From Melioribacter roseus (GTDB lineage Bacteria > Bacteroidota > Ignavibacteria > Ignavibacteriales > Melioribacteraceae), in NCBI GenBank assembly GCA_020724265.1, contig DYHH01000002.1, positions 201,026 to 265,025 of the forward strand: 64,000 bases of DNA. The letters run 5' to 3'. Under the pieces are notes generated by a model that worked only from the letters and a program-made list of their open reading frames with translations, was not told the DNA's origin and did not search any database. Below are positions 741 through 31,103 of this stretch, piece by piece; position 1 is the stretch's first letter; each line of letters opens with the position of its first letter. A program made the position numbers and the translations under genes.

Positions 741-755
741 TTATCAATTTGATAA
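741..755. promoter_or_regulatory. 15-bp palindrome, candidate enhancer (UAS) site 1
   Basis: The sequence TTATCAATTTGATAA is a perfect inverted repeat (TTATCA / TGATAA around ATT) just after the activator gene. The same element, read on the other strand, recurs at 4751-4765. In both places it ends exactly 62 bp before the GG of a GG-N10-G sigma-54-like element. A dimeric Fis-type HTH would bind such a site. The binding protein is inferred, not shown. Confidence 0.68.
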
Positions 756-816
756 TGCACTCAACTCAAATTTATTTTCTTAGCTTCAATTTATTCTCTA
801 AATCAATAAATCTAAC

Positions 817-831
817 TGGAATAATATTTGT
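817..831 (+). promoter_or_regulatory. Sigma-54-like promoter for the GH5/SGNH unit
   Basis: TGG at 817-819, 10 bases, then GT at 830-831 (TTTGT) fit the -24/-12 spacing of sigma-54 promoters (GG-N10-GC). The -12 half is good and the -24 half lacks the CAC extension. Expected transcription start is near 842, about 24 bp before the ATG at 866. This supports 866, rather than an upstream ATG at 749, as the start of the GH5 gene. Confidence 0.5.
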
Positions 832-865
832 ACTTATTCTTTGTTATAAAAAAACCGGGTTAACA

Positions 866-2842
866 ATGAATTATAAAATACTTTTACTCCTATTATCTCT
901 TGTTACTAACATCTTTGCTCAAGGATTTTTAAAAGTTGATGGAAAAAAAATTATTAACGATAACGGTGAAATAATTCTTAAAGGAATCGGTTTAGGCGGT
1001 TGGATGCTTATGGAAGGTTATATGTTTAAAACTTCCGAGTTTGCTAATGCAGAGTATCAAATAAAAGAAAAAATTATTGATTTGATCGGAGAAGATAAGA
1101 CCGAAGAATTTTTTGATTACTTTCATCAAAATTTTATTACCGAAGCAGATATTGATAGAATAGCTCAATGGGGTTTCAATTCAATTCGATTACCCATGCA
1201 CTACAACAAATTAACTCCGGAAGATCAGCCGGGAGTTTACTTAGAAAAAGGATTTAAATACATTGATGATCTTCTTAACTGGTGCGAAAAAAATGAACTT
1301 TATTTAATCCTGGATTTGCATGCAGCACCCGGCGGGCAAAGTGATGAACCGATTAGTGATTACAATCCTAACAAACCGTCACTTTGGGAAAGTGAGTTTA
1401 ATAAAGAAAGAACGATTAATCTCTGGCGCGAAATTGCAAGACGTTATTCCGAGAAAGAATGGATAGGAGGTTATGACTTAATCAATGAAACCAAATGGGA
1501 TCTTGGTAACAACAACGCACCGTTACGAGACTTAATGATTAGAATCACCGAAGCAATTCGTGAAGTCGATTCAAATCATATTGTTTTTATAGAAGGGAAT
1601 TGGTTTGCAACTAATTTTATCGGCTTACCTCCTGCATGGGATGATAACTTAGTATGGAGCTTTCATAAATACTGGAATGAAAATAGTCAATCTGCAATTC
1701 AATCATATCTTACATTACGAGAACAAACAAACAGACCGCTTTGGCTTGGTGAATCGGGTGAAAACTCAAATGTTTGGTTTACACGCTGCATTAAATTAAT
1801 GGAAGATAATAATATCGGATGGGCATGGTGGCCCCTCAAAAAAATTGAATCTATTGCCGGCCCGCTTTCTGCAAAGATGACAAACGGATATAAAAAATTA
1901 CTTGATTATTGGAAAGGAAGCGGAAGCAAACCCTCACAAACCGATGCGTTTAATTATTTAATTGAACAAGTAGATCAGCTCAAGTTAGAAAATTGTACTT
2001 ATCGTCCTGATGTAATTGATGCAATGATTAGATTGCCCATAGACGAGACTTCGTTTCCATTTAAAGATCATAGAATTCCGGGTAGAATATTTTTTACCGA
2101 TTACGATCTTGGTCCACTTAGTGTCGCTTACTTTGATAATAATTATCATAACATAGGAAGAGAAGGACAAACAGTTTATAATACCGGCTATGAATATAGA
2201 AATGACGGTGTCGATATTGAAAAATGCAGTGATTTTATTACAAACGGATATAATGTTGGATGGATTGAATCCGCGGAATATTTAACATACACAGTCAATA
2301 TTGCACAAACCGGTACATATAAATTGTCATTAAGAATTTCGGCAATGAACTCCGGTGGTAAAATTCTGATTTATCTTGATGATTCACCACTTACATCAAT
2401 GATAGATGTACCCGTAACTGGCGGCTGGCAAAATTGGAATACGCTTAATTATGGTAATGTTGAGTTACCTGCCGGTATTCACAAAATTACAGTAAAATTC
2501 TTTTTCGGCGGATTCAACGTGAACTTTCTTGAATTTGAAGAAGTATCGGTAAAAGTTGAAGATGATGATCTAAAATTAAATTTTAATCTGGAGCAAAATT
2601 ATCCGAATCCCTTTAACGGAACAACAACAATTAACTATTCAATACCTATCGATACATCCGTTGAAATTGTGATTTATGATTCAACGGGGAAGAGAATCAC
2701 GACCCTAATGAATGAAGAACAAATTGCTGGTAAACATTCAATAATATGGGAAACAAATGAAATAGCAAGTGGAGTTTACTTTCTATCATTAAAATCCGGT
2801 CAAGGAAATTTTGCCGTGAAAAAAGCATTACTTATTAAGTAA
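866..2842 (+). CDS. Secreted GH5 glucanase with CBM6 and C-terminal sorting domain
   Basis: A 658-residue enzyme if started at 866. That start gives a clean signal peptide (MNYKILLLLLSLVTNIFAQ); the open frame runs back to 749 but has no signal peptide there. The GH5 TIM barrel spans about residues 25-360. Its likely acid/base is E208 (LINE, followed by T rather than the common P) and its likely nucleophile is E296 (LGESGEN). A CBM6-like beta-sandwich covers about 400-565 (GWIESAEYLTYTV). The last 80 residues are a T9SS-type sorting domain with NYPNPFNG, a G replacing the usual P. GH5 enzymes cleave beta-1,4, beta-1,3 or beta-1,6 glucans, and the substrate is not decided by sequence. It is the first gene after the sigma-54-like promoter at 817. 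Confidence 0.88.
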   Translation: MNYKILLLLLSLVTNIFAQGFLKVDGKKIINDNGEIILKGIGLGGWMLMEGYMFKTSEFANAEYQIKEKIIDLIGEDKTEEFFDYFHQNFITEADIDRIAQWGFNSIRLPMHYNKLTPEDQPGVYLEKGFKYIDDLLNWCEKNELYLILDLHAAPGGQSDEPISDYNPNKPSLWESEFNKERTINLWREIARRYSEKEWIGGYDLINETKWDLGNNNAPLRDLMIRITEAIREVDSNHIVFIEGNWFATNFIGLPPAWDDNLVWSFHKYWNENSQSAIQSYLTLREQTNRPLWLGESGENSNVWFTRCIKLMEDNNIGWAWWPLKKIESIAGPLSAKMTNGYKKLLDYWKGSGSKPSQTDAFNYLIEQVDQLKLENCTYRPDVIDAMIRLPIDETSFPFKDHRIPGRIFFTDYDLGPLSVAYFDNNYHNIGREGQTVYNTGYEYRNDGVDIEKCSDFITNGYNVGWIESAEYLTYTVNIAQTGTYKLSLRISAMNSGGKILIYLDDSPLTSMIDVPVTGGWQNWNTLNYGNVELPAGIHKITVKFFFGGFNVNFLEFEEVSVKVEDDDLKLNFNLEQNYPNPFNGTTTINYSIPIDTSVEIVIYDSTGKRITTLMNEEQIAGKHSIIWETNEIASGVYFLSLKSGQGNFAVKKALLIK

Positions 2843-2871
2843 ATTAGTGTAAGTAAAATAAAAGTTCACAA

Positions 2872-4704
2872 TTGAAAAAATATATTTTCTACTTTGTTTT
2901 AATCCTTATACCCATTCTCTTTTTTGTTCTGCTTGAAGGAGCATTAAGAATATTTAACTACGGGAAAGATTATTCTACATTCGTTGTAATCAGCGAAATT
3001 TCCGATCAATACTTTTTAAATCCATTATTACCGGAAAAGTATTTTGTTAGTACAGAAGTAACCCCATCGGTAATACCGGATCCGTTTGATAAAATTAAAT
3101 ATGAAAATACCATCCGCATTTTTATTTTTGGAGGAAGTACAACCGCCGGATTTCCGTATTCACCCAATGCATCATTCCCCAGATTGGTAAAAAGAAAAAT
3201 TGAAATGTATTATCCCGCGCATCGAGTTGAAGTTATTAATTTGGGTGTCTCTGCAGTCAATACATATTTTATAAGAGATATAATTGATGATGTAATAGAA
3301 CAGCAGCCTGATTTATTATTGTTTTATACCGGTCATAATGAATTTTATGGTGCATTAGGTCCAGCATCTACAGAATTTATTTCCGGATCGCCGGCAACTG
3401 TTAATCTAATTCTTAAACTGCGTGAATATAAAGTCTATCAGTTAATGACGAATCTAATTAACTCAATATGGAATCTATTTGGTGAGGAAAAGTTAGAATC
3501 GCGTTCAACCTTGATGGAAACAATGATAGCCGAACAAGAGATCGATTCTGATTCTGAAATATTTCGAGATGGTTTAGCTCAATTTGAACAAAACATGGAA
3601 GCAGTCCTTAACAAATGCAGTAAACATAATATTCCTGTTTTAATCGGCAATTTAGTCTCGAATCTAAAACAAAAACCGTTGCAAATATCGGAAGGAGTAG
3701 CTCAAGAATATTTTTATGAAGCAATGCAGAAACTTGACAAAGAGAATTTTACCGAGGCAAAAGAATTATTTATTAAAGCAAAAGACAATGACTTATTGAA
3801 GTTTAGAGCTGTCGAAGAATTCAATTACATTATAGATAAACTTGCCGAAAGATTTGATGCAGACATAGTCGATATTAAAAACGGATTTGAATCAGCAAGT
3901 GAAAATTCAATTGTTGACAACAAACTTATGGTTGATCATCTTCATCCTAACCTGGAAGGGTATAAACTAATGGGAGAGATTTTCTTCGAAGTTACTGATA
4001 ATTATTTAATGGCAAAATTTGGTAAAGAAAAAAATGTAGCCTCATCTGCGATTAATAAATACTTGAAAGAAAATTTTCCTTTTACAAGATATGATTCAAC
4101 ATTGGCTGCGATAAAAATTGACATACTCCTAAATTCATTTCCTTTTACACAAGATAGGAATTATAATTATAAACAATTCCCGTTGGAAAATTATCCAGAT
4201 ACTTTAGCTATGGAGAGTATTGAAAAAGGTTTAGGATGGGCGGCTGCTCATGTTAAATTATTTGATTATCACTTTAGACGAAAAGAATTTTCAGAAGCAT
4301 ACAAAACACTTTTTTCTTTAATGGAAGATCGTCCGTTTTATAAATCTGCTCTTTATTACGGAATTGAAAAATTACTATCGGTTAATTATATAAAACAAGC
4401 GAAACACATTTTAGTTAGAAACCATAGAAGATTACCCGATAAGTTTACTTCTAATGAATTAGGGAAGATCAATCTTAATGAAGGAAATATTAACTTGGCA
4501 AATAAACTTTTTAATGAAGCGCTTCGTTATTCGCCAACAGATCCGGAAATATATTATAATCTTTCACGAGCATATTACGCACTTCAAGATTTACCGAATG
4601 CCATTAAACATATCGAAAGTTGTTTAGCTATATCACCCGATTATCCGTCAGCAAAGAACATTTATGAACAGCTTAAATTACTTCACTCATCCAACAAAAA
4701 TTAA
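2872..4704 (+). CDS. Membrane-anchored SGNH-hydrolase-like protein with TPR tail
   Basis: A 610-residue protein, probably starting at the TTG at 2872; no good Shine-Dalgarno is visible. A hydrophobic N-terminal segment (residues 5-25) is an uncleaved anchor or signal. The SGNH/GDSL blocks are recognisable: FGGST with S89 as nucleophile candidate, a Gly/Asn block (TGHNEFYGALG), and DHLHP with D355 and H358 completing the triad. Two to three TPR-like helical repeats occupy about 500-605 (PEIYYNLSRAYYALQDLPNAI). SGNH proteins of this size act as acyl esterases or acyl carriers on glycans. The actual substrate here is unknown. It follows the GH5 gene by 29 bp and probably shares its promoter, so de-acylation of glucan or of a cell-surface glycan is possible but unproven. 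Confidence 0.72.
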   Translation: MKKYIFYFVLILIPILFFVLLEGALRIFNYGKDYSTFVVISEISDQYFLNPLLPEKYFVSTEVTPSVIPDPFDKIKYENTIRIFIFGGSTTAGFPYSPNASFPRLVKRKIEMYYPAHRVEVINLGVSAVNTYFIRDIIDDVIEQQPDLLLFYTGHNEFYGALGPASTEFISGSPATVNLILKLREYKVYQLMTNLINSIWNLFGEEKLESRSTLMETMIAEQEIDSDSEIFRDGLAQFEQNMEAVLNKCSKHNIPVLIGNLVSNLKQKPLQISEGVAQEYFYEAMQKLDKENFTEAKELFIKAKDNDLLKFRAVEEFNYIIDKLAERFDADIVDIKNGFESASENSIVDNKLMVDHLHPNLEGYKLMGEIFFEVTDNYLMAKFGKEKNVASSAINKYLKENFPFTRYDSTLAAIKIDILLNSFPFTQDRNYNYKQFPLENYPDTLAMESIEKGLGWAAAHVKLFDYHFRRKEFSEAYKTLFSLMEDRPFYKSALYYGIEKLLSVNYIKQAKHILVRNHRRLPDKFTSNELGKINLNEGNINLANKLFNEALRYSPTDPEIYYNLSRAYYALQDLPNAIKHIESCLAISPDYPSAKNIYEQLKLLHSSNKN

Positions 4705-4727
4705 GTCAACTTATCTTAATAAATAAC

Positions 4728-4765
4728 TTATCAAATTTATAATAGGCATCTTATCAAATTGATAA
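4728..4765. promoter_or_regulatory. Tandem palindromes, candidate enhancer (UAS) site 2
   Basis: The perfect palindrome TTATCAAATTGATAA (4751-4765) is the reverse complement of the site at 741-755. A second copy with one mismatch (TTATCAAATTTATAA, 4728-4742) lies with its centre 23 bp upstream, about two helical turns. The perfect copy ends 62 bp before the GG at 4828, the same distance as at site 1. Confidence 0.68.
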
Positions 4766-4806
4766 TGAGCTTAAAGAGGAGCTAAACTCTTTTTGTTAAT
4801 TCGAAC

Positions 4807-4824
4807 TGTATTTTAAAAAATACA
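4807..4824. promoter_or_regulatory. Inverted repeat next to the -24 element
   Basis: TGTATTT and AAATACA form a perfect 7-bp inverted repeat around TAAA, ending 3 bp before the -24 element at 4828. It lies between the putative enhancer and promoter, where a bending protein or repressor could bind. It has no counterpart upstream of the promoter at 817. Confidence 0.35.
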
Positions 4825-4826
4825 AT

Positions 4827-4841
4827 TGGCACTTATTATGA
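4827..4841 (+). promoter_or_regulatory. Sigma-54-like promoter for the long glucan operon
   Basis: TTGGCAC (4826-4832) matches the sigma-54 -24 element perfectly. After exactly 10 bases from GG comes GA at 4840-4841, a weak -12 (consensus GC). Expected start is near 4852, about 23 bp before the TTG start at 4875. The identical placement relative to the upstream palindrome is the main reason to accept it. Confidence 0.52.
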
Positions 4842-4874
4842 TATAAAAATATAAAAAACCCCATGGATAGATAG

Positions 4875-6425
4875 TTGATTGAAAGTATAAGTCTTGTTGA
4901 CAACATAGTCATTATATTTTATTTCGGTATAGTACTGCTTATCGGTATCTATCATCAACGCTCCAAAGTAAAAAATTCCGAGGATTATTTTCTTGCCGGA
5001 AGAAATATGGGATGGATTGCTGTCGGAACTTCACTCTTTGCGACAAATATTTCTTCGGAACACTTAATTGGTTTATCAGGTGCCGGTTATTCAAGAGGGT
5101 TAAGTGTCGGACAATTTGAATGGCTTGCCGTATTTATTTTGGTCTTACTCGGTTATGTATTTGCGCCTATTTTTATCCGTTCAAAAGTTTTTACTGTACC
5201 CGAATTTTTCGGACAAAGGTTTGACCAAAGGAGCAGAACTTATCTTGCCGCTATTTCAATAATTGCTTACTTCTTCACAAAAATAGCGGTCACCTTATTA
5301 GCTGCAAGTTATTTACTCAAATTAGTGCTAGGTTGGGACATGTTTGCCTCTACGGTGATGATAGTTCTGCTCACAGGTCTTTACACAATTATCGGTGGTT
5401 TAAGAAGTGTTATTAAGACTCAAATTTTCCAAACAGTATTATTAATTTTTGGCGCTGCTCTGTTGGTTTATTACGGTATTTCCAAAGTTGGCGGGTTTGC
5501 TGCTTTATCACAAAAACTTCCTTCAGATTATTTTACGCTTTTCAAACCGACTGATGACCCCGATTTCCCATGGACGGGAATTATATTCGGTGCCCCTATA
5601 CTTGCAATTTGGTATTGGTGTACGGATCAATATATTGTTCAAAGAATACTTAGTGCTAAGGGAATAGAACATGCGCGCAAAGGAACTCTTCTTGCAGCTA
5701 TTCTTAAAATATTTCCAATATTTTTATTTATTCTTCCCGGTATGATTGCGGTTGTACTCTACCCCGGTATTTCCGGTAATGAAGCTTACACTTATCTTCT
5801 TGCCGGTAATATTCTTCCTATAGGTGTTAAAGGAATTGTTATTTCAGGATTAATTGCTGCATTAATGTCGTCATTATCAAGTGCTTTTAACAGCTCGGCT
5901 ACCTTAATTGCAAACGATTTTTATAAACCACGCAAGAAAAATGTTAAAGATGATGAATTGGTTTTAATTGGTCGTCTTGCAACTACACTAATTGTGATAT
6001 TAACAATCTGCCTAATTCCGCTTCTTAAAATGATTAGTCGAGATATATATTTATATCTGCAAATCTTGCAGGCATATATTAGTCCACCGATTGCAAGTGT
6101 ATTTCTCATAGGAATATTCTGGTCAAAGGTTACTTCCACTGCTGCAATTTATTCTCTAATAACCGGTGGGTTATTTGGATTCATTAAAATTCTATTAAGT
6201 CTTTTAGATCAAAGCATAATTGAAAGTTTGGGAATACTTGGTTTATATGCGAGCATTAATTATTTGCACTTTGCATTTGTATTATTTGTTATTACTTCGG
6301 TTGTATTAGTTATTGTAAGTCTTACTAAAAAGCAGACAGCTCAAGAAAAAATTCAGGCATTTAATTTCATTTTTCATAAAGAAGATCTCAGTATTAACTG
6401 GATGCAGTCAAAAATCAAAAATTAA
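4875..6425 (+). CDS. Sodium:solute symporter (SSS/SGLT family)
   Basis: A 516-residue polytopic membrane protein with about 13-14 hydrophobic segments. Family signatures include DYFLAGRNMGW near residue 36, the ATNISSEHLIGLSGAGYSRG segment, and GLRSVIKTQIFQ. SSS proteins use a sodium gradient to bring in sugars and similar small solutes across the inner membrane. The start is TTG at 4875: the only nearby upstream ATG in this frame (4863) is followed at once by TAG. It is first in the long run of glucan genes and is paralogous to the symporter at 29466, sharing DYFLAG, NIS(S/A)E and PEF/PEY motifs. The likely substrates are glucose or short beta-gluco-oligosaccharides. Confidence 0.9.
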   Translation: MIESISLVDNIVIIFYFGIVLLIGIYHQRSKVKNSEDYFLAGRNMGWIAVGTSLFATNISSEHLIGLSGAGYSRGLSVGQFEWLAVFILVLLGYVFAPIFIRSKVFTVPEFFGQRFDQRSRTYLAAISIIAYFFTKIAVTLLAASYLLKLVLGWDMFASTVMIVLLTGLYTIIGGLRSVIKTQIFQTVLLIFGAALLVYYGISKVGGFAALSQKLPSDYFTLFKPTDDPDFPWTGIIFGAPILAIWYWCTDQYIVQRILSAKGIEHARKGTLLAAILKIFPIFLFILPGMIAVVLYPGISGNEAYTYLLAGNILPIGVKGIVISGLIAALMSSLSSAFNSSATLIANDFYKPRKKNVKDDELVLIGRLATTLIVILTICLIPLLKMISRDIYLYLQILQAYISPPIASVFLIGIFWSKVTSTAAIYSLITGGLFGFIKILLSLLDQSIIESLGILGLYASINYLHFAFVLFVITSVVLVIVSLTKKQTAQEKIQAFNFIFHKEDLSINWMQSKIKN

Positions 6426-25967: not shown

Positions 25968-28900
25968 ATGTCAGATAAATCAATATATGTAGGGGAATGT
26001 AAAATTCTTAATAATACGGGGAATGTTTCCGGCCGATATGTTGAGCTAGAAAACGAGTCCTACTATAAAATTTCCAACTATGACCAAATGGACCCGTTTT
26101 TTATGAGTATTGTCAGCGGATCTGATTTTTGGATGTTTGTTTCAAGTACCGGCGGAATAACAGCCGGAAGGAAAAATCCCGACAATGCTCTTTTCCCATA
26201 CTACACCGATGACATAATTCATGACTCCGCCGAAAAGACCGGCAGCAAAACCTTGCTTAGAATACAGTTGAGAGAGAAGACTCTTTTCTGGGAACCGTTT
26301 TCAAATTACTACCGCAATATTTATAACATTAGTAGAAATCTTTACAAAAACATTCCCGGTAATAAAATACTCTTTGAAGAAATTAATCATGACTTAAAAT
26401 TAACTTTTCAATACAGTTGGCTTACCAGTGAAAAATACGGAATTGTAAAACGATCAAAATTAATCAACAGTAATAAATCTGAAATAAAGATTGAATATTT
26501 GGACGGCATTCAGAATATTCTTCCTTACGGAATTGATCAGCAGTTTCAAAATGCATTCAGTACACTTGCAGACGGTTATAAGAAAAATGAGTTAATAAAA
26601 GAAGTTGGAATTGGAGTATTTTCATTAAGTTCAATTCCTTCAGACAAAGCAGAACCGAGCGAATCATTAAAAGCAACAACAGTTTGGTCAACAGGAGTTC
26701 AACCCCAAAAATATCTTCTCTCTTCAACAAGACTAAATGATTTTCGAAATGGTAAAAATATAGAAAGTGAATATGATATAAAGGGAAGAAGAGGAGCTTA
26801 CTTTATTAATGGCGACTTTTCACTTAAGCCGGATAAGAGTAAAGAGTGGTTTATAATTTCCGAGATAAATCAAGATTCCTCCGATTTAGCAGAGTTAATC
26901 AATCTTCTAAAAACTAATGCTGAATTAACCGAAAAAGTGAACTCCGATATTTCTGCAGGTACGGAGGAGTTAAAAAAGATCGTTGCTAAAGCAGACGGAA
27001 TACAGTTAACACAAGATAAATTAGGAACATCGAGGCATTTTGCTAATACACTTTTTAATGTAATGAGAGGCGGAATTTTCCTCGATTCATATACAATCGA
27101 CAATAAAGATTTTCTTCAGTTTGTGCAATCTTCCAACAGCCGGGTTTATAAGAAACATGAAAAATTCTTAATCGAACTAAACAATAAAATTGAATACTCT
27201 GATTTAGTTCAGCAGGTAAGTGAGTTAAACGATAATGAATTGACTAAGCTTGTTTACGAATATTTGCCGATAAGTTTCAGTCGAAGACATGGTGATCCGA
27301 GCAGACCGTGGAATCGTTTTTCAATTGATATAAAAGATGATAAAAATAAAAAGCTGCTTAATTACCAGGGCAACTGGCGAGATATTTTCCAAAATTGGGA
27401 AGCGCTTGCCGAATCATTCCCAAATTATATTGAATCGATGATAACTAAATTCTTAAACGGGTCAACGGCAGACGGTTATAATCCTTACAGAGTTACAAGA
27501 GACGGATTCGACTGGGAAGTACCGGAGCCGGATCAGCCGTGGGCAAACATCGGTTATTGGGGCGATCATCAGATAATTTATCTTCTCAAATTATTGGAAC
27601 TTTCTTATAACCATAATTCAGATAAACTGAAAGAGCTTATAAACAAAGATATTTTTACTTATGTCAATGTTCCATACAGAATAAAGAAATATGAAGATTT
27701 ACTTCGTGATCCTCACAACACGGTGGACTTTGATTATAACCTCAACAAAAAAATAAAAGCTGAAGAAAAAGAAATCGGATCAGATGCACGTTTCATCGAA
27801 CGAAAAGACGGTAGTCTTTATCAAGTTAATTTGCTTGAGAAATTACTTTCACCACTTCTTGCAAAGTTAAGCAACTTCATACCTGGCGGCGGTATCTGGA
27901 TGAACACTCAGCGACCCGAATGGAACGATGCAAATAACGCTCTTGTGGGTTACGGCATTTCTATGGTAACGCTATATTATTTGAGAAAGTATGTGAGTTT
28001 TCTCATTGACTTCATCTCGGAACTAAAGGAAAGTGAATCAAAAATTTCAGAAGAAGTGAAAATATTTTTTAATGAACTTAGTGAACATTTATCCGCGAAT
28101 GTAAATAATCTGGAATCCGGTATAACGGACGAGACAAGAAAATCAATACTTGACGGACTAGGCATTGCCGGTTCGAACTTTAGAATAAAAATTTATGAGA
28201 AGGGATTCTCCGAAAAAAAAGAGAAACTTGAGATAAAATCTGTTATCGATTTCTTAAATACAACCCAAAAATATCTCGATAAGACAATTGAAGATAATAA
28301 ACGTAAAGATGATCTATACCATTCATATAACTTAATGTCTCTGCAAGAAAACAAGTTGAGTATAATTAATCTTTATGAAATGTTGGAAGGTCAAGTGGCG
28401 GTGTTAAGTTCGGGTTACCTGCAAACTCCGGATACGATAAAACTTCTTGACTCATTAAGAAAAAGTGAGTTATATCGTGAAGATCAAAATAGTTACATAC
28501 TTTATCCCAATAGAGAACTGCCGCAATTTGTTGAAAAGAATATAATCCCCGCCAAAGAATTTAATTCATCGGAAATGTTAAAGAAATTTATCAACGATGG
28601 TAACGGAGATATTGTTCAAAAGGATAAACAAGGGAATTACCACTTTAACGGTGAGATTCGAAATGCGGTTGTTTTAAGAACCAGATTAAAAAAGATACAA
28701 CAAGAAAACAAAAATGAAATTACCGATGAAGATATTAGTAAAGCTTTGCAAATTTATGAGTCTGTTTTTCAACACAAATACTTTACCGGCAGATCAGGTA
28801 CGTTCTTTAAGTACGAGGGATTAGGGTCAATTTATTGGCACATGGTTTCAAAGTTGCTGCTTGCAGTGCAGGAGACTTATTATCAAGCAATTGAAAACGG

Positions 28901-29429
28901 TGCAAACAATGACGAATTAAAGAAATTGAAAAAATATTATTATGAAATTAAAGAAGGAATTGGTGTCCATAAATCTCCGGATAAATATGGTGCATTCCCA
29001 ACTGACCCATATTCACATACGCCGAGTTTCGCAGGTGTTCAACAGCCCGGAATGACAGGGCAGGTGAAGGAAGATTTCATTTCAAGAATAAGAGAACTGG
29101 GTGTTCAAGTTAAGAACGGTCAAATAATTTTCTATACAAACTTGCTTAACAGCGATGAATTTTTAACAGCAGAAGAATCATTTGAGTATTTCGATGTGAG
29201 CGGGAAGAAAATTAATATTCAACTGCCGAAAAACTCATTAGCATTTACATATTGCCAAGTACCAGTTATCTATCTAAAATCTGATGAAAGTAAAGTATGT
29301 GTTTATAAAGAAGGTAAAGCGGTGGAAATGAATTCACTCGAATTAAACTTGGAAGATAGTCAATCACTGTTTCAAAGGGACGGTGCTGTTGATAAAATTG
29401 AAATTTACGTAAAGCAAAATAAACAGTAG
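25968..29429 (+). CDS. Cytoplasmic GH94-related phosphorylase, GH149/GH161-like (beta-1,3-oligoglucan phosphorylase candidate)
   Basis: A 1153-residue protein without signal peptide, hence cytoplasmic. The N-terminal beta-sandwich contains features of inverting glycoside phosphorylases (FWMFVSSTGGITAGRKNP, VKRSKLINSNKS, DGIQNILPYG). The helical barrel contains GYWGDHQIIYLLKLLE (D533) and PEWNDANNAL. D654 of the WND motif corresponds to the general acid of GH94 enzymes. GH94 cellobiose phosphorylases are about 800 residues. The greater length fits the larger GH149 and GH161 families, which phosphorolyse beta-1,3-gluco-oligosaccharides to glucose 1-phosphate. The neighbouring GH17/GH16 genes and the SSS symporter 37 bp downstream agree. 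The exact family needs a profile search. Confidence 0.78.
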   Translation: MSDKSIYVGECKILNNTGNVSGRYVELENESYYKISNYDQMDPFFMSIVSGSDFWMFVSSTGGITAGRKNPDNALFPYYTDDIIHDSAEKTGSKTLLRIQLREKTLFWEPFSNYYRNIYNISRNLYKNIPGNKILFEEINHDLKLTFQYSWLTSEKYGIVKRSKLINSNKSEIKIEYLDGIQNILPYGIDQQFQNAFSTLADGYKKNELIKEVGIGVFSLSSIPSDKAEPSESLKATTVWSTGVQPQKYLLSSTRLNDFRNGKNIESEYDIKGRRGAYFINGDFSLKPDKSKEWFIISEINQDSSDLAELINLLKTNAELTEKVNSDISAGTEELKKIVAKADGIQLTQDKLGTSRHFANTLFNVMRGGIFLDSYTIDNKDFLQFVQSSNSRVYKKHEKFLIELNNKIEYSDLVQQVSELNDNELTKLVYEYLPISFSRRHGDPSRPWNRFSIDIKDDKNKKLLNYQGNWRDIFQNWEALAESFPNYIESMITKFLNGSTADGYNPYRVTRDGFDWEVPEPDQPWANIGYWGDHQIIYLLKLLELSYNHNSDKLKELINKDIFTYVNVPYRIKKYEDLLRDPHNTVDFDYNLNKKIKAEEKEIGSDARFIERKDGSLYQVNLLEKLLSPLLAKLSNFIPGGGIWMNTQRPEWNDANNALVGYGISMVTLYYLRKYVSFLIDFISELKESESKISEEVKIFFNELSEHLSANVNNLESGITDETRKSILDGLGIAGSNFRIKIYEKGFSEKKEKLEIKSVIDFLNTTQKYLDKTIEDNKRKDDLYHSYNLMSLQENKLSIINLYEMLEGQVAVLSSGYLQTPDTIKLLDSLRKSELYREDQNSYILYPNRELPQFVEKNIIPAKEFNSSEMLKKFINDGNGDIVQKDKQGNYHFNGEIRNAVVLRTRLKKIQQENKNEITDEDISKALQIYESVFQHKYFTGRSGTFFKYEGLGSIYWHMVSKLLLAVQETYYQAIENGANNDELKKLKKYYYEIKEGIGVHKSPDKYGAFPTDPYSHTPSFAGVQQPGMTGQVKEDFISRIRELGVQVKNGQIIFYTNLLNSDEFLTAEESFEYFDVSGKKINIQLPKNSLAFTYCQVPVIYLKSDESKVCVYKEGKAVEMNSLELNLEDSQSLFQRDGAVDKIEIYVKQNKQ

Positions 29430-29465: not shown

Positions 29466-31103
29466 ATGAACTTCTCAACTACAGACTATGTCATATTTGC
29501 TGTTTACATAATCGGAATCGTTTCGCTCGGATTGTATGTCTCGCGCGAAAAGAAAGGGCACGAGAAAGATTCAAAAGATTATTTCTTAGCCGGCAACAAA
29601 CTGACTTGGTGGGCAATCGGTGCTTCACTTATTGCAGCAAATATATCCGCCGAGCAGATCATCGGTATGTCAGGTTCCGGGTTCGCAGTAGGACTTGCAA
29701 TTGCATCATACGAGTGGATGGCTGCAATTACACTTATTATTGTCGGTAAATATTTTCTTCCAATCTTTATCGAAAAGAAAATTTACACAATACCGGAGTA
29801 TATCGAGAAACGGTACAATAAAAATCTTAAAACAATTCTTGCGATCTTTTGGATATTCTTATTCATCTTCGTCAATCTCACTACTGTTATCTTCCTTGGG
29901 GCAAAAGCACTTGATACAATTATGGGTGTTGGTGACGGATCAATGATAATTCCATTCATTATTGTACTCGCATCAATTGCTGCAGCATATTCTTTATATG
30001 GTGGTTTGTCGGCTGTTGCTTGGACTGATATTATTCAAGTGGTGCTGCTGGTTTTCGGTGGTATAATTGCTACAATAATCGCTCTCGATTATGTTACGCC
30101 GGATGGAGGAGTGTTTGCCGGGTTGGCTCATATTTACAATACGGCAGATGATAAATTTCATATGATCCTGGAGAAAGGACATCCCGAGTTTGATAATTTG
30201 CCGGGTATCGCGGTGCTGATCGGCGGCATGTGGATAGCAAATTTATATTACTGGGGATTCAATCAATACATTATTCAAAGAACACTTGCGGCTAAATCTT
30301 TACGTGAAGCACAAAAGGGAATTGTCTTTGCGGCGTTTCTAAAATTAATAATCCCTCTATTTGTTGTTATCCCGGGAATTATTGCTTATGTACTTTTTGC
30401 GCAACCGGAAGGAACAGCTATCATAGAAGGTGTAAAAGAATCCTTCATGAAATCTGGCGGCGGAATTAATTATGATAAAGCTTATCCTTGGTTAATCAGT
30501 CACTTCATACCGACAGGCTTAAAAGGTGTTGTTGTTGCAGCATTAACCGCTGCTATTGTTTCTTCACTTGCTTCAATGCTTAATTCAACATCTACAATAT
30601 TTACGATGGATATTTACAAACCGTATATCGGCAAAAATAAATCTGAGAAAAGACTTGTTAAAGTTGGTAGGATAAGTGCTGCTGTTGCTTTAATTATTGC
30701 ATGTCTTGTTGCTCCATTATTAAAAAGCGTTCCTCAAGCTTTTCAATATATTCAAGAATATACAGGTTTGGTTAGTCCCGGAATTTTAGCTGTTGCAATG
30801 CTCGGTTTGTTCTGGAAAAAAACAACAACCCGGGGTGCAATATGGGGTGCTGTTCTTTCCATACCTGTTGCTCTATTCTTAAAGTTAGATTTTATACAGC
30901 TTCCGTTTTTGGATCAGATGTTATATACATTTTTAATAAGTATTGTAATTATTGCTATGGTAAGTTTAACAACATCTGAAGTAGACGACGATTCACAAGG
31001 TATTACTCTTACATCAAAAATGTTCAGAACTGATAGTTCATTTAATATCGGTGCTTACATTGTCCTAATTATTTTAGCAGTTCTTTATACAATATTTTGG
31101 TAG
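29466..31103 (+). CDS. Sodium:solute symporter (SSS/SGLT family), second copy
   Basis: A 545-residue membrane protein of the SSS family, with about 14 hydrophobic segments. Signatures are DYFLAGNKLTWWAIGASL, AANISAEQIIGMSGSGF, YSLYGGLSAVAWTDIIQ and ASMLNSTSTIFTMDIY. It resembles vertebrate-type SGLT sugar transporters more than proline or acetate transporters. It follows the cytoplasmic phosphorylase by 36 bp and precedes a laminarinase lipoprotein by 7 bp. This makes it the best candidate to bring in the oligosaccharide the phosphorylase consumes. It is paralogous to 4875 but clearly diverged. Confidence 0.92.
   Translation: MNFSTTDYVIFAVYIIGIVSLGLYVSREKKGHEKDSKDYFLAGNKLTWWAIGASLIAANISAEQIIGMSGSGFAVGLAIASYEWMAAITLIIVGKYFLPIFIEKKIYTIPEYIEKRYNKNLKTILAIFWIFLFIFVNLTTVIFLGAKALDTIMGVGDGSMIIPFIIVLASIAAAYSLYGGLSAVAWTDIIQVVLLVFGGIIATIIALDYVTPDGGVFAGLAHIYNTADDKFHMILEKGHPEFDNLPGIAVLIGGMWIANLYYWGFNQYIIQRTLAAKSLREAQKGIVFAAFLKLIIPLFVVIPGIIAYVLFAQPEGTAIIEGVKESFMKSGGGINYDKAYPWLISHFIPTGLKGVVVAALTAAIVSSLASMLNSTSTIFTMDIYKPYIGKNKSEKRLVKVGRISAAVALIIACLVAPLLKSVPQAFQYIQEYTGLVSPGILAVAMLGLFWKKTTTRGAIWGAVLSIPVALFLKLDFIQLPFLDQMLYTFLISIVIIAMVSLTTSEVDDDSQGITLTSKMFRTDSSFNIGAYIVLIILAVLYTIFW

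Follow-up and report, generated by a model that had tools for sequence, protein, structure and literature searches.

Paired palindromes and sigma-54-like elements point to two-component control of a beta-1,3-glucan locus in Melioribacter roseus

How do bacteria of the Ignavibacteria switch on the genes with which they break down glycans? No description of such control was found in the literature searched. The question is raised by a stretch of 64,000 nucleotides from Melioribacter roseus (contig DYHH01000002.1, positions 201,026 to 265,025), called the window here, in which two copies of a 15-bp palindrome stand at the same distance before two GG-N10-G elements at the start of glycan-utilisation genes. 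We suggest, at a probability of about 0.88, that a sensor encoded by an adjoining trio of genes, for a solute-binding protein (SBP), a histidine kinase and an activator, turns on sigma-54 polymerase at two promoters of a beta-1,3-glucan locus.

The palindrome TTATCAATTTGATAA at 741-755 is the single candidate enhancer site, or upstream activating sequence, of promoter 1. Its reverse complement at 4751-4765 is the proximal site of promoter 2, and a copy with one mismatch at 4728-4742 is the distal site, 23 bp away; the 4728/4751 pair has the tandem spacing that is seen in relatives. From palindrome to GG (818 and 4828) the distance is exactly 62 bp at both promoters, and the GG-N10-G elements end at 830 and 4840. 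These palindromes, their equal spacing and the start codons shortly downstream had been pointed out in the initial annotation, and all were borne out, the start codons being ATG at 866 and, less surely, a probable TTG at 4875. In the 3.77-Mb genome (56 contigs) a search for the exact palindrome, with W at its centre, returned only these two places and none outside the locus, so that the random scatter through coding regions named beforehand as evidence against the proposal is not seen for the exact form. With one mismatch the palindrome is found at 17 places genome-wide; the pattern read backwards, as control, has a total of 4. The 17 include the copy at 4728; among the other 16, 14 lie in long open reading frames (ORFs), one overlaps an ORF start and one is intergenic. 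Matches with up to two mismatches, counted strand-wise, number 6 in the window; 100 shuffles gave 1.58 on average and never more than 5.

A matrix learned from relatives alone ranks the three window palindromes first to third in the 64 kb (17.2, 17.2 and 13.7 bits; next 12.1). In the whole window, site matches above 12 bits that have a promoter motif above 9 bits at 40-85 bp, on either strand, occur only at these two promoters. Two pairs at lower thresholds, both within ORFs, were set aside (13493, 9.2 bits with a promoter motif of 15.0; 2136, 6.5 bits with a promoter motif of 10.2). Conservation follows the same elements. In two congeners that resemble each other in this stretch, G002 and G003, the site at 741-755 keeps its position with a changed centre, and the TGG and TTTGTA of promoter 1 are kept. 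At promoter 2, a 17-bp stretch at the proximal site, CTTATCAAATTGATAAT, is identical in G002, where TTGGCAC and TTATG are also kept. In both congeners at promoter 1, and in G002 at promoter 2, much of the spacer has changed while site and promoter are retained. Chance likeness of two AT-rich palindromes at equal spacing has in its favour that the genome is AT-rich and that the degenerate form occurs in it six times; it is contradicted by the held-out ranking, by these footprints in congeners and by the independent loci described below, and we regard it as hardly conceivable.

Promoter 1, TGGAATAATATTTGTA (817-832, + strand), has GG at 818-819, G at 830 and T in place of C at 831; it scores 9.3 bits with the held-out promoter matrix and is the best match in its 250 bp. 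Promoter 2, TGGCACTTATTATGAT (4827-4842, + strand), has GG at 4828-4829, G at 4840 and A in place of C at 4841, and scores 12.2 bits. Both carry TGG at -24 and then a G 10 bp after the GG, which is the -24/-12 arrangement of sigma-54 promoters, and the best promoter-motif match after each window site is the very element first proposed, at an offset of 57 in both cases. The sigma-54 consensus has GC at -12. Since this C is absent from both window promoters and is not conserved in the family (in relatives C makes up about 21% of the column after the -12 G, and the base after the -12 TG is without conservation), we do not claim canonical sigma-54 promoters. We file them as a clade variant that probably works like a sigma-54 promoter and would depend on RpoN. 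The lack of conservation after the -12 TG also accounts in part for the earlier remark that each promoter has only one strong half.

An alternative is that transcription starts from promoters of the primary sigma factor, that the GG-N10-G elements are there by chance and that the palindromes are the site of a proximal activator. The AT-rich region, the -10-like hexamers that overlap the elements and the missing -12 C all suit this explanation. However, sigma-70-like sites number 18 against 21.2 in shuffles, in a scan whose scope excludes Bacteroidota-type promoters; de novo discovery in relatives gave TGGyAy..TG, with -24/-12 spacing; and the adjoining regulator has GAFTGA, the loop that contacts sigma-54. 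We consider promoters of the primary sigma factor very improbable.

The activator gene, whose 3' part occupies positions 1-737 of the window (+ strand; whole gene L011:10309-11763), encodes 484 amino acids with a receiver, a sigma-54 AAA+ domain and a C-terminal Fis-type helix-turn-helix (HTH). Its Pfam matches are PF00072, PF00158 (236 bits) and PF25601, GAFTGA is present in an alignment of 14 family members, and its best sequence matches in the PDB are an NtrC and FleQ. It thus combines the receiver, the AAA+ domain with GAFTGA and the Fis-type HTH of the NtrC family, the HTH being read from sequence. The HTH (655-734, + strand, limits approximate) is conserved in the family alignment and is the proposed reader of the palindromes. 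Upstream of the window lie the genes for the histidine kinase (HATPase_c, 499 aa) and the SBP (SBP_bac_1, 443 aa), and the trio (L011:7481-11763) has short gaps or overlap between its genes. The genome encodes 15 strong sigma-54 activators, with 5 weak matches besides, and one RpoN with an intact RpoN box, ARRTVAKYR. The sigma-54 enhancer reading of the initial annotation is therefore supported by an NtrC-type activator with GAFTGA, by RpoN, and by motifs from relatives alone that recover both the sites and the -24/-12 elements.

For these motifs the window locus was excluded from both trainings; L083, a near-duplicate of L084, was dropped from motif and first-set counts, and L103, cut at a contig end, from the site-motif run. 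In the 300 bp after the activator gene of 54 relatives, a palindromic motif, RTTATYAWWWTRATAAY, emerged de novo with a log-likelihood of 219.5, compared with at most 55.9 in six shuffled sets (order-2 background, fixed site number). The matrix of an earlier run, which had collapsed onto base composition, was discarded. The promoter motif tnnTGGcAtnattttTGn, of -24/-12 form, TGG-N9-TG, came from the 250 bp beyond the sites with the window held out; its shuffled control is the test on independent loci, with one shuffle per flank. In the first set of 56 loci, which includes the window's, 57 of the 66 noncoding site clusters (53 tandem) pass 9 bits with the trained promoter matrix, 42 of these 57 at offsets of 45-76 bp. 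Clusters that lie before SBP genes tend to face the other way: in 14 of 18 noncoding ones the promoter motif has its higher score on the opposite strand, towards the divergent side.

The trio itself is conserved. SBP matches at E 0.001 were found in 43 of 58 genomes, the organism's own included, and were strong (at least 240 bits) in 38. In 59 stretches taken around strong SBP matches, with one 145-bit match included, the order SBP, kinase, activator is kept in 56. Two of the three exceptions end at contig edges (L123, L137), and the third, L141, with 30% SBP identity, is without kinase and activator matches. This conserved set, the SBP gene adjoining those of kinase and regulator, probably forms an SBP-containing three-component system, and beside it in many, not all, stretches are GH5/GH16 glycoside hydrolase (GH), symporter, CBM9-like, TonB-receptor-like and PorV-like genes. 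A scan of named genomes with a kinase alignment confirmed 250 loci; the best 80 of these comprise, by title, 39 from Ignavibacteria/Melioribacteraceae or their genera, 24 from a 'Bacteroidetes/Bacteroidota bacterium' and 17 from elsewhere, including KSB1 (four) and Calditrichota or Caldithrix (four). In a phylum-wide draw, the kinase was found at E 1e-40 in 33 of 296 genomes. The cultivated relative Stygiobacter electus has the trio as well (L218), with no site above 12 bits in the stretch covered. A subgroup adjoining TonB-receptor-like genes (L135, L140; also L131, L134, L138) has site-promoter distances of about 120-170 bp, not 46-80, and its two aligned activators (L135, L140) have GAFTDA/GSFTDA in place of GAFTGA.

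Removal of 21 of the 80 named loci, which overlap the first set, left 59 as an independent set. Where at least 350 bp follow the activator, a site above 12 bits was found in 23 of 48 loci (20 shuffles: mean 0.2, maximum 2). A second site (>6 bits) lies 15-35 bp away, most often 22 or 23, in 43 of 55 noncoding clusters. The promoter motif, above 9 bits and within 250 bp on either side, accompanies 38 of these 55 clusters, compared with 7 of 55 shuffled flanks and 0 of 10 clusters in ORFs. Offsets lie between 46 and 80 in 35 of the 38 and are grouped near 46, 57, 67 and 77; the window's two promoters are at 57. A phase test on these 35, chosen post hoc and leaving out 140, 142 and 157, gave a best period of 10.6 bp (Rayleigh p about 4e-5 at 10.5), and a fraction of 0.0006 of 5000 smooth null sets reach this value. 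These offsets suggest that sites and promoters are in helical phase.

Are the palindromes read by the activator of the trio, or are they operators of another regulator, a LacI/TetR-like repressor or a different activator, with or without use of the GG-N10-G elements by sigma-54? Dyads of 15 bp are generic in shape, binding by the activator is a prediction, and many relatives also have sites between the SBP gene and a divergent gene. Several lines of evidence oppose another regulator. Sites above 12 bits in the 56 loci are tied to the trio: 49 of them (2.73 per kb) fall in the 320 bp around the end of the activator gene and 83 (0.096 per kb) in the rest of the loci, many of the latter preceding a symporter or SBP gene. 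The degenerate palindrome and its reversed control stand at 256:232 in the 38 genomes with a strong SBP match and at 57:120 in 20 without (Fisher p 2e-6), a test that takes sites as independent and an excess that is relative, the motif being hardly in absolute excess. The C-terminus of the activator, with its HTH, differs by eye from those of the other 14 strong activators in the genome, and the promoter motif keeps preferred distances from the sites. Another regulator is improbable in our assessment.

Six further site-bearing stretches come from four relatives. In three related genomes, tandem sites (L223:2995-3032, L224:2942-2980, L225:2988-3026) precede a gene for a major facilitator superfamily (MFS) transporter, followed by one for a ROK-like kinase. 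None of the three contigs carries a strong SBP match. Towards the transporter, the promoter motif reaches 5.1, 10.7 and 10.2, respectively, at 89-101 bp from the closer site. A family search with the proteins of L225 gave gluP above the cut-off (402 vs 203 bits) and ROK glucokinase just below it (236 vs 260). At L226, a trio locus, tandem sites precede an MFS gene and a GH81 gene.

A number of results weigh against control of these promoters by the trio and sigma-54. The canonical -12 C is missing from both window promoters, and promoter 1 is weak, at 9.3 bits with a single site. Nor is the promoter motif rare when taken by itself, since the window has 18 matches of at least 9 bits on the + strand and 6 on the - strand. 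The degenerate palindrome alone is not enriched in the genome (6 places, control 5); it is the position of the sites, their pairing and their conservation that give support. Near other activators of the same genome, two stretches have a site just above 12 bits (L028, 12.3; L042, 12.7), which also favours another regulator. Noncoding sites above 12 bits are missing from 15 of the 56 first-set loci, and 25 of the 48 independent ones have no site in the 350 bp that follow the activator gene; in such loci the sites may have diverged, lie elsewhere, or be replaced by another motif. In addition, 3 of 20 coding clusters of the first set also pass 9 bits, 15 of its 57 offsets are at 87-218 bp, and the remaining two of the six further stretches, L227 and L228, have single sites within ORFs.

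The genes behind the two promoters indicate what would be controlled; all are on the + strand. The first target gene (866-2842) encodes, by Pfam, a GH5-CBM6/35 protein (CBM, carbohydrate-binding module) with a sorting domain of the type IX secretion system (T9SS), and is followed after 29 bp by a gene for an SGNH/GDSL-TPR protein (2872-4704, Pfam), likely in the same unit. The second target unit opens with a sodium:solute symporter gene (4875-6425; PF00474, 278 bits). At 4862-4877, directly before the TTG of this gene, there is a conserved AAACCCCATGG and an in-frame ATG, two codons and a stop, and the same is found upstream of the symporter gene in a congener (L084). A predicted start near 4852 would give a leader of about 10 nt before the symporter, with a TTG start codon or a tiny leader ORF.

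The remainder of what is likely a single transcription unit spans 6495-38833, with gaps of at most 97 bp between the listed ORFs. By Pfam and NCBIfam, it encodes in order a CBM9-like T9SS protein, a TonB-receptor-like protein (matches below cut-off), a PorV-like protein, GH16, GH3, an MFS transporter, a GH17-like protein (below cut-off), GH3, GH149, GH16, GH3, GH5 and GH5. Further ORFs of the unit, taken from the ORF list, lie at 29466 (symporter-like by eye) and 35888. The GH149 protein (25968-29429) is a 1,3-beta-glucan phosphorylase that matches NF058639 at 1714 bits (cut-off 1150) and is without a Pfam match. Since GH16, GH3, GH5, GH17-like and GH149 genes stand in one run, the substrate of the locus is very probably beta-1,3-glucan, a sugar polymer of algae and fungi. 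The SusC-family model TIGR04056 gives 55.1 bits against a cut-off of 368, and no SusD match was found among the proteins scanned. After the glucan locus, genes that look like PAS/histidine kinases, response regulators and chemoreceptors are densely packed at 39092-63824, as read from the ORF list.

In the mechanism that we infer, an extracellular SBP, membrane-anchored as its hydrophobic N-terminus suggests, and the histidine kinase would sense a sugar, probably a beta-1,3-gluco-oligosaccharide. Sensing would lead to phosphorylation of the regulator whose gene ends at 737. The phosphorylated regulator would bind the TTATCA-N3-TGATAA dyads, always on the same side of the helix; their centres lie 70 bp upstream of the GG of each promoter, and promoter 2 has a second dyad two turns further. 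From there it would contact RNA polymerase with RpoN and open the promoters through ATP hydrolysis. Promoter 1 would drive the GH5-SGNH pair, and promoter 2 would drive the symporter gene and, most probably, all of the beta-1,3-glucan locus as far as about 38.8 kb.

Control by sigma-54 enhancers and two-component regulators of the NtrC family is familiar from NtrC, ZraR and NifA. The system proposed here resembles these in its receiver-AAA+-HTH regulator with GAFTGA, a dyad about 95-120 bp upstream of the expected start, a -24/-12-like element and RpoN. It differs in that its targets serve glycan utilisation, the -12 C is not conserved, an SBP gene precedes the kinase gene, and the 15-bp AT-rich dyads mostly occur in tandem and seem to keep helical register with the promoter. 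Polysaccharide utilisation loci of Bacteroidota are regulated by SusR, by hybrid two-component systems or by extracytoplasmic function (ECF) sigma/anti-sigma pairs. Our locus is like them in clustering genes for a TonB-receptor-like protein, glycoside hydrolases and transporters of the inner membrane; unlike them, it falls far below the SusC cut-off (55 vs 368 bits), has no SusD among the proteins scanned, and would be under sigma-54 in place of the known regulators. In Bacillota, sigma-54 activators of the LevR/ManR type control sugar phosphotransferase system (PTS) operons. Sigma-54 control of sugar uptake is the common point, whereas the targets there are PTS operons and here a two-component receiver, an SBP and glycoside hydrolases are involved. 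A regulon survey describes an enrichment of sigma-54 with PTS in Bacillota (PMC12316311).

The nearest sensing set is CuaDSR of Ruminiclostridium cellulolyticum, in which a dedicated SBP, a kinase and a response regulator stand upstream of oligosaccharide-utilisation genes, as they do here (PMC10384115). CuaR is of the YesN/AraC type (PMC10384115). Here the regulator is a sigma-54 activator, and a glycan locus with T9SS/TonB-receptor-like proteins and a symporter is among its predicted targets. Thus, both activation of sigma-54 through NtrC-like regulators and sensing through an SBP, a kinase and a regulator (CuaDSR, PMC10384115) are already known. No description of their combination, of its use for glycan loci of Ignavibacteria or of paired phased sites was found in the literature searched, a coverage mostly outside subscription papers and preprints. 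In the accessible text of the regulon survey 'Ignavibacteri-' and 'Melioribacter' do not occur (PMC12316311), and in that of the paper on the Melioribacter roseus genome 'sigma' is found as the name of a supplier only (PMC3534657). A Flavobacterium transcriptome study ties a sigma-54 motif to protein quality control, envelope stress and gliding (PMC9723704).

We think it fairly likely that sigma-54 is a main switch for polysaccharide utilisation in Melioribacteraceae and in part of the other Ignavibacteria, of KSB1 and of Calditrichota. There, a cassette of SBP, kinase and activator would act through tandem phased enhancers before glycan operons, and in some genomes before distant operons for sugar transporters and ROK kinases, and would serve there as SusR, hybrid two-component or ECF systems do in Bacteroidota. 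If this is true, two short motifs would allow the glycan regulons of many uncultured genomes, distant targets included, to be predicted together with their inducers. Because their enhancer-promoter distances differ naturally by about one helical turn at a time, the loci would also be a means of probing the short-range phase dependence of sigma-54 activation. The occurrence of the same switch in many related bacteria suggests a little-known form of control over the digestion of polysaccharides.

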